42,806 bases of DNA, from NCBI GenBank assembly GCA_021822485.1, contig JAKAQP010000012.1, positions 1-42,806 of the forward strand, given 5' to 3'. The translations under genes were made by a program, and so were the position numbers. The notes below the pieces were generated by a model. It saw only the letters and a list, made by a program, of their open reading frames with translations. It was not told the origin of the DNA and made no database searches. Below are positions 38,754 through 42,806 of this stretch, in pieces; the first letter of the stretch is position 1; each line of letters starts with the position of its first letter. The stretch is from a bacterium. GTDB lineage: Bacteria > SZUA-79 > Acidulodesulfobacterales > Acidulodesulfobacteraceae.

Positions 38754-39272
38754 ATGGACCTAAAACAGTTTATCCGCGAAATACCGGATTTTCCAAAAAA
38801 AGGAATTAACTTCAAAGATATTACGCCTCTGCTTGCCGATGCAAAAGCATTTACATACGCAATAGATTCTTTAACCGAATCGTATATTTCAAAAAAAATA
38901 GATTACGTAGTCTGCATAGAAGCAAGGGGCTTCGTTGTTGGCGCTCCAATAGCCTATAGGCTCGGCGCAGGTGTCATAATGGTCAGAAAACCCGGTAAAC
39001 TTCCATACGAATGCACGTCCTTAAGCTACGACCTCGAATACGGAAGCGCAACCCTCGAAATACATAAAGACGCTTTAAAAAAGGGCGACAGGGTAATTAT
39101 TGCCGACGATGTTCTTGCAACCGGCGGAACGGCTATTGCAACCATAGGACTCGCCGAAAGTTTCGGCGCCGAAGTCGTCGATACGGCGTTTCTTGCCGAG
39201 CTTTCCTTTTTAAATGGGGCTGAAAAACTTAAACCTCATACGGTAAACGTTTTATTGAAATTCGATTACTAA
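38754..39272 (+). CDS. apt: Adenine phosphoribosyltransferase
   Basis: Purine salvage enzyme making AMP from adenine and PRPP. It has 172 residues. [17 protein letters not shown] (11-27), [27 protein letters not shown] and the PRPP loop [17 protein letters not shown] are diagnostic. A consensus promoter lies just upstream, so it is transcribed on its own and not with the membrane glycosyltransferase. Confidence 0.97.
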
Positions 39273-39382: not shown

Positions 39383-39772
39383 ATGAAAAAAGGAATAACG
39401 GTAATATTCGTAGTACTCGTCATAGTACTCGGCTACTTTGCGGTTCACGCAATAACCGCTCCGGTAAAATTATCGGCGGCACAGCTTGGAAATCAGCTTA
39501 TTCATTCGCACAAAAAAGGAATAGACTGTTTTGCCTGCCATAGAATAGGCAAAAAAGGCGGAACCATAGGTCCAAACCTTTCAAAAGAAGGACTTGCAAA
39601 ACATTCTATAAAATGGATCGAAGTCCAGATTGCGACTCCGTCTAAGCACTTCAAATCTGGTTCTATGGTGAAGATTAACGGAAAGACGTATATGGCTATT
39701 ATGCCCGACCATAAAATGCTAAACAAAAAAGAACTCTTTGAACTTGCGTCTTATTTGGATTCGCTGAAATAA
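39383..39772 (+). CDS. Monoheme class I cytochrome c (periplasmic)
   Basis: A 129-residue protein. The N-terminal hydrophobic segment (about 4-22) is a signal peptide or a membrane anchor. One heme c site, CFACH, has Cys49, Cys52 and His53, followed by GGTIGPNLS. M107 in the IMPDH stretch is the probable sixth iron ligand. Length and layout match small soluble electron carriers. AAGGGGGG before ATG 39383 is a strong ribosome-binding site. It sits directly before the Cyc2-like gene, so it may take electrons from it; this is inference. Confidence 0.9.
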   Translation: MKKGITVIFVVLVIVLGYFAVHAITAPVKLSAAQLGNQLIHSHKKGIDCFACHRIGKKGGTIGPNLSKEGLAKHSIKWIEVQIATPSKHFKSGSMVKINGKTYMAIMPDHKMLNKKELFELASYLDSLK

Positions 39773-39789
39773 AAAAACGTTAAAAACAC

Positions 39790-39817
39790 TTGACATATGA
39801 AATTTCGGCATTATAAT
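39790..39817 (+). promoter_or_regulatory. Promoter P1 of the Cyc2-like gene
   Basis: Perfect TTGACA (39790-39795), 16-nt spacer, perfect TATAAT (39812-39817). The -10 box is within the left arm of the 15-bp dyad, so a dyad-binding protein would block or alter this promoter. Confidence 0.75.
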
Positions 39818-39849
39818 TAATTATATAAATTATGAATTATAATGCCGAA
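39804..39849. promoter_or_regulatory. 15-bp dyad overlapping promoter P1
   Basis: Perfect 15-bp arms: TTCGGCATTATAATT (39804-39818) and its complement at 39835-39849, with a 16-nt loop. An outer inverted repeat TTGACATAT / ATATGTCAA (39790-39798, 39866-39874) surrounds it. No T-tract follows, so a terminator for the upstream cytochrome gene is less likely than an operator. Confidence 0.65.
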
Positions 39850-39881
39850 TATTTAAATGAAACTAATATGTCAAAAATAAG

Positions 39882-39910
39882 TTGACAAGAGTTAAGTTTA
39901 GATATATAAA
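39882..39910 (+). promoter_or_regulatory. Promoter P2 of the Cyc2-like gene
   Basis: Perfect TTGACA (39882-39887), 17-nt spacer, TATAAA (39905-39910, 5/6). It lies clear of the dyads, about 200 nt before the start codon, and could provide transcription when P1 is blocked. Confidence 0.7.
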
Positions 39911-40121
39911 TATAGATATAAGTGAATAAAGCGGAATAAAAAAGCTGATTAAAAAATTAACATATAAAAATCTTTGAAGGAGGTGAAAAAGGAGAAAGAT
40001 TTAAAAATTTTATTATGTAGTAATGTATAAGTAGTTGAGCAGTGATTAGCAATGATTTAAAAAGTAAACAAGTTCTAATTTAATTTTAATTTTATTTTAA
40101 CTTTAAGAAGAGAGGAAAGTT

Positions 40122-41573
40122 ATGAAAAAGTCATTAGCAGTTACACTCGTAGCTTTGTTCGTCTTGGCAGTATCATTTGCAATGGTCCCCAAGAAAGCAA
40201 ACGCTATTCCGGCTTTCGCACAAAAGTATCACTTTTCGTGCGCAGTTTGTCATACGGTATTCCCAAACCTTAACCCGTTCGGAAGAGCATTCTGGAGAAA
40301 CGGCTTCAGACTTCCGGGCACAAACGGAACTCCTGCGGACGCAACGCAGATTTCTAACGGATTAGCACTTCCGAATCCATGGCCGATTCCTGTGATGATT
40401 GAACCGATTATCAGTTATACGCACAACGGAAATGAAAATGTTTCACCTCAAACAGATGCAGATGCGTTTACCGCAGAGGCTGATTTAGTTTCAGCCGGAG
40501 CATTTAAGGTTTATACTCCGTTTGCAAATTCAATTTCATTTTATGTTCATTATAATTCATCAACATCAACAGCCCAAAATCCACACCCAGCTTTTTCGCA
40601 AAAACAGATATTTGCGTCTTTAAACGGAATAGGAAGCGGATTTGGAATTGCTCCCCATCTATTAAATTTGAAAATAGGTCAGGTAACAACCGCAAGTCCT
40701 TATTTTTACAGACAGATGCCGTTTTATAATGTGGCAGGGCCGGTTGGCAATGGTCAAGGATTGAATGTCGGTTATGACGGTGAAACTGGTAACCTAATTC
40801 ATGCCAGAAATGAAGGGTTAGCTTTATACGGTACCCCGGGTTATCATTTGTGGTATAAAGTAACAATGACGAATGACTCAGGAACTCCTTCATTGAATAA
40901 TAGCTTAACTAAATATAGCGTATCTAATGGTGAAGCTACTGGAAGCGGGACATCCAACGCAATGGAATATTCTTATCAATTAAAAGAATATTATCCTGTT
41001 CCTGTCGGTCAGTTAGAATTTGGCTACTACGGAGCAACAGTCGCAGAACCGCTTCAAGTTCATGGCGCTTCATGGACGGATAGAATTATGGTTAACGGCG
41101 TTGACGTTGATTTAGCTAACGACATTTACGAACTTGGTTTGACATGGATGGAACAGAATGATTCTAATCCTTATGCTCCAAGCAACTATTCCGGCGGACC
41201 TAATGCTTTTAACGGTACAACAGGCATAGACAATACATCGAACGGTTATTCTGACTTTGAAGTTTACGGAAGATATTTATTTCCGCAGGTTGGTAAAGGT
41301 TTGATGTTGATGGCTGATTATGCAACATATTCATGGTCGCATAAAAACGCACAGGAAGCATTTAATGATACATTAAACACTAGCTGTTCAAATTCGAATT
41401 TATACGGTACAGGATATGTCAGTGGTAATTGTACTAATGACGGTATAAAGGATGCATTTGCTTTGCAAGCTGAATATAATTTAGCTTATAATGCTCATTT
41501 ATATTTAGGATATACAATAACAAATCATACTCAATTTAATACACTTGACTCAGGTCTTGACTTCGCATTCTAA
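40122..41573 (+). CDS. Cyc2-like monoheme cytochrome-porin fusion, candidate outer-membrane Fe(II) oxidase
   Basis: A 483-residue exported protein. The signal peptide ends ANA (about residue 28). The mature start IPAFAQKYHFSC leads to one heme c site, CAVCH (Cys40, Cys43, His44), then TVFPNLNPFGRAFWRNGF. This short heme plug with the P-L-N-P-FGR-F-GF pattern is the hallmark of Cyc2-type proteins. The rest has alternating polar/hydrophobic strands with many aromatics and Asn/Gly/Ser turns, ending LDFAF, a typical outer-membrane barrel C-terminus. Known Cyc2 proteins are of about this length and oxidise Fe(II) at the cell surface. Other one-heme barrel proteins share the plug, so the substrate is inferred. 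GAGAGGAAAG precedes ATG 40122, and a strong terminator follows. Confidence 0.68.
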   Translation: MKKSLAVTLVALFVLAVSFAMVPKKANAIPAFAQKYHFSCAVCHTVFPNLNPFGRAFWRNGFRLPGTNGTPADATQISNGLALPNPWPIPVMIEPIISYTHNGNENVSPQTDADAFTAEADLVSAGAFKVYTPFANSISFYVHYNSSTSTAQNPHPAFSQKQIFASLNGIGSGFGIAPHLLNLKIGQVTTASPYFYRQMPFYNVAGPVGNGQGLNVGYDGETGNLIHARNEGLALYGTPGYHLWYKVTMTNDSGTPSLNNSLTKYSVSNGEATGSGTSNAMEYSYQLKEYYPVPVGQLEFGYYGATVAEPLQVHGASWTDRIMVNGVDVDLANDIYELGLTWMEQNDSNPYAPSNYSGGPNAFNGTTGIDNTSNGYSDFEVYGRYLFPQVGKGLMLMADYATYSWSHKNAQEAFNDTLNTSCSNSNLYGTGYVSGNCTNDGIKDAFALQAEYNLAYNAHLYLGYTITNHTQFNTLDSGLDFAF

Positions 41574-41641
41574 TCCCGCTGAATACGAATAAAGTCAACT
41601 ATATTATTTAATTCCTGAACCATTTGTTAAATCTGCATTTT

Positions 41642-41678
41642 AGGACTTATTGGTATTTATCCAATAAGTCCTTTTTTT
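41642..41678 (+). terminator. Intrinsic terminator of the Cyc2-like gene
   Basis: A 12-bp perfect stem (AGGACTTATTGG / CCAATAAGTCCT), a 7-nt loop and seven T residues, starting 69 nt after the stop codon. Confidence 0.9.
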
Positions 41679-41682
41679 GTTT

Positions 41683-41835
41683 TTATCTATTTGTTTTTTT
41701 TATTTCTTCTACAAACGAATCTGTTATTTCTTTCAGATTTGCCTCAAGAAACTCTATTGTTCTAATATCAAGTTTTATAACCCTCTCGAAGTTTTCAGAA
41801 GCCTTGCCGATTGAGAATAAAGGTGTCAGATTTAT
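41683..41835 (-). pseudogene. Unrecognised reading-frame remnant
   Basis: On the minus strand about 50 codons are open with protein-like composition (IGKASENFERVIKLDI, FLEANLKEITDSFVEEIKK) and a stop at 41683. No ATG, GTG or TTG start is in frame, because a stop closes the frame at 41838. An ATG at 41845 is in another frame, so a frameshift is possible. The charged, helical look is faintly like a phasin or coiled-coil tail, but no family is claimed. Confidence 0.3.
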
Positions 41836-41845
41836 TTATTCTCAT

Positions 41846-41883
41846 ACTCCCGACTACGTTTTAAAGTGGTCGGGAGTTTTTTT
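41846..41883 (+). terminator. Second intrinsic terminator
   Basis: A 12-bp stem with one G-T wobble (ACTCCCGACTAC / GTGGTCGGGAGT), an 8-nt loop and seven T residues on the plus strand. No plus-strand gene lies between it and the first terminator, so it may be a relic of a lost gene or a back-up. Confidence 0.85.
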
Positions 41884-42069
41884 ATGTCTCATAACTGCCG
41901 ATATGTAAACTTGATTATTTTTCGTAAATAATGTATAAATAAATTAACTTAATCATTAAATTAATAATTTATGTTTTTGAATGACTATGAATTTACGGCG
42001 CATGCAATCAAATAAAGTGGTTTGATTTACTTATTCTCTAACTCCCTAAGTGTTAGAGGAAATAAAAAA

Positions 42070-42806
42070 TTAATTGTTTTTTTTATTTTTTATTTCCCGC
42101 ATTTTTTTGTTAAAATCTTTTTTAAACGGTCTTCCTTGCGAGCGTCTTTCTATTCTAATACCTAAGATACGTTGAACTGCTTCTTCGAATATGGAATTTC
42201 CGGTTAACTGGCCGCGTTTTACGGAATCTCTTAAGAAACTAATTTCTTCGGGCGGACTAGTTTCGCCAATGAATTTTTCATAATTTTTTAATCTTATTTC
42301 GCCAGTTTCTCCAAGACTTAAAAATACCTTATCTAAATCTAATATTCGTGCGTTTTCTTCTTCATCATTCATTTTTATTTCTTTAATTTCTTTTATTCCT
42401 ATTTTTATATCTGTATCGTCATTTATTCCATAAGTCATTCTTTCTGAAAAACTTGACCATTTATATTCGATAGGATGATTCACAATGCCTGCCCTTATAG
42501 GATTTAATTCAATATATCGGCAGCAATTCAACAAATAATATTCTTTTTGAACCGGACTTGATTTATATCTGCTTTCCCACAGAGTGCCTGTTCTTCCTTC
42601 CAGTATATTAAAGTAACGGGTAGTTCTTGCTGATAGAGTTTTCATAAAAAGCGGGACTTTATATGCGTCGTTCCCCGGCTGTAAAAGCAGATGTACGTGA
42701 TTTGTCATAAGACAGTAGGCAAAAACTTTTATATCGAATTTCGCTTTTAATTCCAAAACATTATTTAAATATCTTTCATAATCTGAATTTTCCGCAAAAA
42801 TAATCT
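42070..42806 (-). mobile_element. REP-associated tyrosine transposase (RAYT, Y1/HUH family), 5' end beyond the window
   Basis: Minus-strand gene whose frame stays open to the window edge, so the N-terminus is missing. The TTG at 42756 is internal: IIFAENSDYERYLNN upstream is RAYT-like. The HUH motif is TNHVHLLL. TRYFN, the GTLWESRYKS stretch, and CCRYIELNPIRAGIV are the conserved core of the RAYT branch of IS200/IS605-type Y1 transposases. The probable catalytic tyrosine is in KEYYLL. After the core comes a charged extension with QGRPFKKDFNKKMREIK at the end. RAYTs act on REP palindromes; the repeat family between 10.9 and 31.6 kb is a plausible substrate, but no copy of it lies next to this gene in the visible part. 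Confidence 0.92.

Follow-up and report, generated by a model that had tools for sequence, protein, structure and literature searches.

A Cyc2-like cytochrome–porin with an apparently exchanged barrel and its cytochrome c partner in Candidatus Acidulodesulfobacterales

Contig JAKAQP010000012.1 of assembly GCA_021822485.1 (42,806 nucleotides (nt); this whole stretch is termed the window) carries two neighbouring genes on its forward strand, to which all features below refer, encoding a 129-amino-acid (aa) exported monoheme cytochrome c (39383..39772) and a 483-aa Cyc2-like cytochrome–porin fusion (40122..41573; the gene is termed cyc2). Judged by its sequence, the pair probably forms an outer-membrane electron conduit in which a Cyc2-type cytochrome–porin is joined by a periplasmic cytochrome shuttle. 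The occurrence of such a gene in the order has been known since 2019 (PMC6776010); the lineage-wide loss of a diagnostic Arg, the conserved pairing of the two genes, the absence of a detected oxidase and the apparent exchange of the barrel are new. Among the open-literature matches listed, none described an exchange of barrels, or a Cyc2 running in reverse, in Candidatus (Ca.) Acidulodesulfobacterales. The host is a member of this order and belongs to a genus other than that of Candidatus Acididesulfobacter diazotrophicus AP1 (termed g2), which falls in the same family; the original prediction, made from the DNA letters, had pointed to a lineage resembling deltaproteobacteria, which was right in kind. 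The genome holding the window (G000) is ~90% complete and contains dsrA.

Both open reading frames are as originally described, with CFACH in the shorter protein and a single CAVCH, PNLNPFGR and a terminal LDFAF in the longer. The 483-aa protein begins with MKK, a hydrophobic core and ANA followed by IPAF, a pattern visible in aligned relatives that by inspection marks residues 1-28 as a putative signal peptide (40122..40205). The heme plug follows (40206..40361), with CAVCH at 40239-40253, AIPAFAQKY before it and PNL after it, and then the putative barrel domain (40374..41570), delimited by mosaic analysis and barrel-only profile homology. A published Cyc2 pipeline required a heme-binding CxxCH and a length of at least 365 aa (PMC8406198), and here one CAVCH stands at residue 40 of 483. 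The plug with the heme motif is the best-conserved portion of the protein, while orthologue indels cluster in about seven loop-like stretches; a crude alternation score peaked 25 times without resolving the strand number and was set aside as a strand count.

Matches to the 483-aa protein were found in 30 of 61 genomes. These were 28 of the family's 30 genomes, counting the window's own, plus two others with weak matches; the family genomes without a match were G006 (86% complete) and G009 (59% complete), and 11 of the 30 fall outside a 90%-complete, 5%-contaminated set. This family-wide occurrence, together with 24 aligned relatives sharing 60-91% identity with the protein, rules out a chance open reading frame. 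In a scan of named genomes, the best 80 of 294 related loci were kept, of which 29 came from the window's family (identity at least 43%), including AP1 (L095) and the isolate SZUA-79 (L119), and 51 from other lineages.

Homology to Cyc2-like proteins of those other lineages extends over both parts of the protein. A profile of 25 family proteins matched a profile built from 25 outside proteins at 99.9% (E 2e-34, 312 columns), and a second outside group, represented by eight proteins, was matched at 99.7% (304 columns). With the plug removed, starting 50 residues past the heme motif, the barrel-only profiles matched at 96.3% (E 2e-9, 203 columns), compared with at most 0.6% for ten column-shuffled controls and at most 0.4% for two reversed ones, which rules out homology confined to the heme plug. 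The comparison that shows homology of the porin part was made with other Cyc2-like proteins rather than with a tested Cyc2. Pfam Porin_O_P was matched by one of the 25 outside proteins (E 5e-6), and 20 further single scans, of ten outside proteins of the 25-protein set, six other outside proteins and four family proteins, gave no porin match.

The family departs from Cyc2 at one conserved position. The block AXPXFAR[Q/K][T/Y] before CxxCH has been given as unique to Cyc2 (PMC8406198), and AIPAFAQKY of the window differs from it only in having Q for R. The full block was matched in 0 of 28 family loci versus 35 of 51 named outside loci; of the 29 family loci, L112, which begins past the motif, is left out. 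At the position of the diagnostic Arg, family loci have Gln (27 of 28) or Glu (1 of 28), whereas Arg occupies it in all 51 named outside loci, in a scan whose search pattern did not contain that residue, and in 33 of 37 unnamed outside proteins (Lys in three, His in one; L051, L052 and L084 of 40 fetched outside stretches are left out), giving a basic residue in 88 of 88 outside sequences. All 28 family loci carry PxL after CxxCH (PNL in the window), as do 48 of the 51 named outside loci. Because the Arg motif is a stated diagnostic feature that the family lacks, we use the label Cyc2-like rather than Cyc2. Sequences without PXFAR[Q/K][T/Y] were excluded ahead of the published Cyc2 tree (PMC8406198), so the window's family would have been dropped from it; eight named outside loci out of 51 also fail a literal screen of this kind. 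A tree was built from 108 rows, with 11 named loci and the short rows omitted; in it the family formed one clade (Shimodaira–Hasegawa-like approximate likelihood ratio test 100), and the branch leading to it measures 1.24 changes per site.

The window's cyc2 appears, from sequence comparison, to be a mosaic, its barrel part swapped in from a lineage other than that of the plug and flanks. The first 270 nt of the gene are 86-98% identical to the same-genus genomes G014, G004 and G013 and 70-87% identical to the four g2 genomes compared, while from nt ~270 to the stop codon identity is 49-74% to the same three and 76-98% to the g2 genomes G025 and G027. The maximum chi-square method placed a left breakpoint at 40362..40391 (coding nt 241-270) in six of six comparisons, none of 2000 permutations reaching so high a value in any of them, and in a control stretch (cytochrome plus plug) no breakpoint was found in six of six pairs (309-978 of 2000 permutations as high). 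The right breakpoint lies just past the stop codon (41574..41587), where a 92-94% match to G025, G011 and G027 stops at 41574-41576 and the match to one same-genus genome, G014, on which this breakpoint rests, resumes at 41587 (95.7% over 117 bases).

Trees, of 26 and 24 rows, were compared for the cytochrome and the barrel. In the cytochrome tree g2 forms one clade (99/96) and the window groups with G014 (100/96), the window's genus not being one clade there either (two changes, weak forks), and in the barrel tree the window and G011 are nested in g2 (100/98). The approximately unbiased test rejects a barrel tree that places the window with G014, G004 and G013, a group picked post hoc (p 0.0027). 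Across 231 pairs from 22 genomes, cytochrome identity tracks plug identity (Spearman 0.71) far more closely than barrel identity (0.21), so the plug appears to descend together with the neighbouring genes and the barrel to be exchanged; phage, grazing and iron chemistry are possible causes. An assembly artefact, considered as a less probable source of the mosaic, would have had to switch twice, once at the domain boundary and once at the stop codon, with both flanking sides being same-genus sequence. A second same-genus genome, G011 (LSA5.bin80), carries the same barrel type, and the barrel of the g2 genome co-sampled with it, LSA5.bin79, is 88% identical rather than identical. A search for plasmid-borne close relatives gave three weak matches only. 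The barrel appears to be an exchangeable module on a plug that stays with its neighbours.

The partner of the Cyc2-like protein is a cytochrome c by its single CxxCH and its Pfam PF00034 match (30.1 bits, cut-off 21.3), and an MP near its C-terminus may supply a Met ligand, in the pattern of class I cytochromes. Of the other 29 family genomes, 26 have it at 70-97% identity; it was not found in G002, which has cyc2, nor in G006 and G009, which have neither gene. When cytochrome matches are taken from 70% identity upwards, with positions coded by hand and a cyc2 copy on the same contig chosen where present, the two genes share a contig in 25 loci from 24 genomes (G001 is counted twice), the cytochrome always upstream and on the same strand; in 13 loci they are adjacent (gap below 600 bases) and in 12 they are 2.4-3.7 kb apart. 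The linked cyc2 piece is a contig-end fragment in G010, G017, G018 and G028, and it is outscored by a copy located elsewhere in G010 and G018; in G020, G025 and G029 both genes are present on separate contigs. A second cytochrome in G007 (contig C129, 92% over 118 aa; L224), which runs to the contig end, was left out, as were divergent cyc2 paralogues elsewhere in several genomes. The expectation of a Cyc2-like porin beside an exported monoheme cytochrome is supported by the profile homology of plug and barrel, by PF00034 above its cut-off and by this linkage. The two loci of G001 (L031 and L013) lie in one assembly with 3% contamination and possibly reflect two strains. Some divergent paralogues adjoin genes for four-CxxCH cytochromes (L033 4422-7097, L049 3945-6623), and two genomes from another genus have a longer paralogue (541-555 aa) close to cydAB (L212 5178-9708, L213 3321-8892).

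In seven of the seven wide-gap loci examined (of 12), iscS-, iscU/nifU- and tusA-like genes lie between the cytochrome and cyc2 in the order iscS-iscU-tusA; these seven comprise six from two other family genera and G005 of the window's genus, one set being classified by profile. The window's pair has no such genes in between. In G008 and G003, also of the window's genus, they lie 3-5 kb past cyc2, beyond an apparent IS200-like gene, and there and on contig C82 of the window's genome the order is iscU-tusA-iscS (the three sets at L226 5529-7511, L227 1571-3648 and L225 1854-3858). Because the window's contig ends in an IS200-like (Y1) transposase gene, the block may well follow that end. The cytochrome–cyc2 pairing is kept whether the block sits inside the pair or beyond it. 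The list of top transcripts for the order also names nifU, iscS and sirA (PMC6776010), and the isc/nifU/tusA-like genes of the relatives may be those highly expressed genes.

How such a conduit would work can be set out as follows. The 483-aa protein would carry a single c-type heme, set in a short plug at the N-terminus that is joined to a porin-like barrel; iron would reach this heme from outside while the periplasmic side contacts it from inside, and the 129-aa cytochrome would shuttle across the periplasm to an inner-membrane Rieske/cytochrome b complex. Run outward, the proposed chain would lead from quinol through a bc-type complex, cytochrome c and the Cyc2-like protein to Fe(III), which should be plentiful in acid-mine-drainage waters. 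This outward chain is the only one that can be closed in G000, because no cytochrome c oxidase, nitric oxide (NO) reductase or full-length cytochrome c peroxidase (CCP) was found there. We give outward electron flow slightly less than an even chance, with a mixed or other use making up what this and aerobic Fe(II) oxidation, taken up below, leave over; the inventory makes outward flow, as Fe(III) reduction, at least as likely as Fe(II) oxidation. A reversed Cyc2 acting as ferric reductase has been proposed for Acidithiobacillus (At.) ferrooxidans (PMC8790237), and FeGenie files cluster 3 Cyc2 under probable iron oxidation and possible iron reduction (PMC7005843).

The inventory itself is as follows. 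Searches for COX1 (PF00115) and COX2 gave no match in G000, which has bd oxidase genes and a Rieske protein gene adjoining a cytochrome b gene; its CCP match is weak and below cut-off (148-aa frame, E 9.8e-4), and nitrous oxide (N2O) reductase was covered indirectly, through the COX2 search. Across the 30 family genomes, cytochrome b was found in 25 and bd oxidase subunit I at full length in 24, with a fragment in one more. COX1 of NO-reductase size (~760 aa) occurs in ten; one of these was classified as NO-reductase-like, and one COX1 of ~450 aa as cbb3-like, beside a FixO protein. COX2 searches returned three proteins only, of 673-678 aa, one of which (in G019) was classified as N2O-reductase-like. 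CCP/MauG was above cut-off in seven genomes and of full length in six, all g2. G016 (99% complete, five contigs) has the pair, bd oxidase, cytochrome b and CCP, without an oxidase-size COX1 or dsrA. Apart from one in G027, given below, the remaining COX1 matches were frames of 141-153 aa, two of which were read and one classified, and these are four-helix-sized fragments of the family; such widespread proteins of ~140 aa match the C-terminal part of COX1 only (L223 551-976, L221 694-1116).

Several points weigh against an outward-running conduit of the Cyc2 type. The published Cyc2-diagnostic Arg is replaced in the whole family, searches of Pfam and NCBIfam (E up to 10) returned nothing for the 483-aa protein, and a search of PDB gave it one match, at E 0.56, and the family profile none. 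As G000 is incomplete, a cytochrome c oxidase may sit in its missing part, oxidases of an unrecognized kind may exist, and COX1 of cbb3 size (~450 aa) is present in three family genomes (G012, G019 and G022), with a further below-cut-off match within a 425-aa frame in G027. The ~450-aa, ~760-aa and N2O-reductase-size groups are each classified by profile through one member and otherwise by length or score. MtrB/PioB was found in none of the 30 family genomes by a search whose control matched one of 14 genomes, below cut-off, and which is thus weakly calibrated. Finally, Fe(II) oxidation with oxygen respiration has been inferred for the order (PMC6776010).

That aerobic Fe(II) oxidation, from Fe(II) through the Cyc2-like protein and cytochrome c to a terminal acceptor and in part uphill to quinone, is the alternative that survives best, and we regard it as unlikely, though as one of two directions still in contention. 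In its favour, the protein is of the same type as biochemically tested Cyc2 proteins (PMC8406198), cyt572-like genes occur in four of four genomes of the order, which was proposed as an iron oxidizer, a cyt572-like gene is among the top 20 transcripts and abundance correlates with ferrous iron (PMC6776010), bd oxidase is common and three family genomes have the cbb3-size COX1. However, for the Fe(II) oxidation that the original prediction suggested, the terminal acceptor of the canonical Cyc2 pathway, a cytochrome c oxidase, was not detected in G000, nor an oxidase-size COX1 in 27 of 30 family genomes. As G000 does have the Rieske/cytochrome b genes, the opposite direction is at least as likely. 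On textbook potentials, electrons passing from Fe(II) (~+0.77 V) through the bc complex and quinone to bd oxidase would be expected to yield little or no net energy.

Among known systems, the protein is like Cyc2 of At. ferrooxidans and Mariprofundus ferrooxydans PV-1 in its N-terminal CxxCH, PxL, A-x-P-x-F-A block and barrel-sized body, although at profile level its likeness, in plug and barrel, is to Cyc2-like proteins of other lineages, and it differs from both in the Gln or Glu at the diagnostic position in all 28 family loci. No gene of the rus operon (order in PMC10654088) is among the classified neighbours. Cyt572 of Leptospirillum, likewise an acidophile, is a cytochrome–porin predicted with 16 strands (PMC10654088); it feeds a cbb3 oxidase, and no such oxidase was found in G000. 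The genes for Cyt572 and Cyt579 are unclustered (PMC10654088), whereas the window's pair is clustered, and its 129-aa cytochrome was not matched by NCBIfam cytochrome579 at E up to 10. MtrCAB, MtoAB and PioAB likewise route electrons through an outer-membrane barrel, but there the cytochrome is multiheme and a protein apart from the barrel, which has 26 strands (PMC8406198), unlike the one-heme fusion of the window.

Less probable again is that the conduit serves some other partner outside the cell (arsenic, sulfur species, minerals or other cells) or feeds peroxide or NO detoxification. Cluster 3 Cyc2 homologues have been called the most uncertain in function (PMC8406198), and possible acceptors of cytochrome c electrons exist among the 30 genomes, with NO-reductase-size COX1 in ten, N2O-reductase-size proteins in three and CCP/MauG in seven. 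Nevertheless, in G000 neither COX1 nor COX2 was matched, by searches that included none dedicated to N2O reductase, and its CCP match falls below cut-off, while for an acid-mine-drainage lineage iron would be the likeliest partner. It is very improbable that the heme-bearing porin is kept chiefly to serve as a surface channel or a target for attachment, electron transfer being a lesser role, since the heme-motif plug is the most conserved part and is linked to the cytochrome, even if barrels swapped between genera and decoupled from their neighbours are as in surface proteins under attack.

The regulatory signals around the pair agree in part with the claim that it has its own promoters and terminators. 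A perfect sigma-70 consensus promoter (12/12, TTGACA-16-TATAAT) lies between the genes at 39790..39817, ahead of cyc2, which it can drive alone because of this position, and it is overlapped by an imperfect 31-nt inverted repeat (39794-39859); TTGACATAT was found in five of six aligned sequences, window included, drawn from the 13 adjacent-gene loci. Terminator-like hairpins follow cyc2 at 41642..41672 and 41846-41877, five being found in the region against 1.8 expected. Promoter-like matches overall number 12 versus 10.6 in shuffles and so show no excess. The notion of a plain operon is weakened by the conserved intergenic promoter and by the isc-tusA block that separates the genes in relatives, and a structured leader RNA before cyc2 was set aside, with no Rfam match and a fold no better than shuffles (z 0.82). 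Upstream of the pair lies a conserved apt-like phosphoribosyltransferase gene (38754..39272), outside the proposed mechanism. Downstream, a short repeat (41816-41894), multicopy in the relative L108, lies near the IS200-like (Y1) transposase gene (42070-42756), and the two are perhaps a repetitive extragenic palindromic element with its transposase.

Taken further, and only tentatively, a reversed Cyc2-type protein may end a bc-complex chain in the order as its terminal Fe(III) reductase, tuned by the loss of the conserved Arg next to the heme, with the barrel a swappable surface cassette on a fixed plug, such that electron export and surface identity would evolve separately. Iron oxidation is commonly read from cyc2 marker genes; a lineage-wide Cyc2-like protein that lacks the diagnostic Arg, in genomes most of which show no cytochrome c oxidase, may escape motif screens and, if found, may mislead on the direction of electron flow. 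The family makes Fe(III) reduction by Cyc2-type proteins testable, and the exchange of barrels on a fixed plug could help to explain the high variability of the porin part of Cyc2-type proteins.

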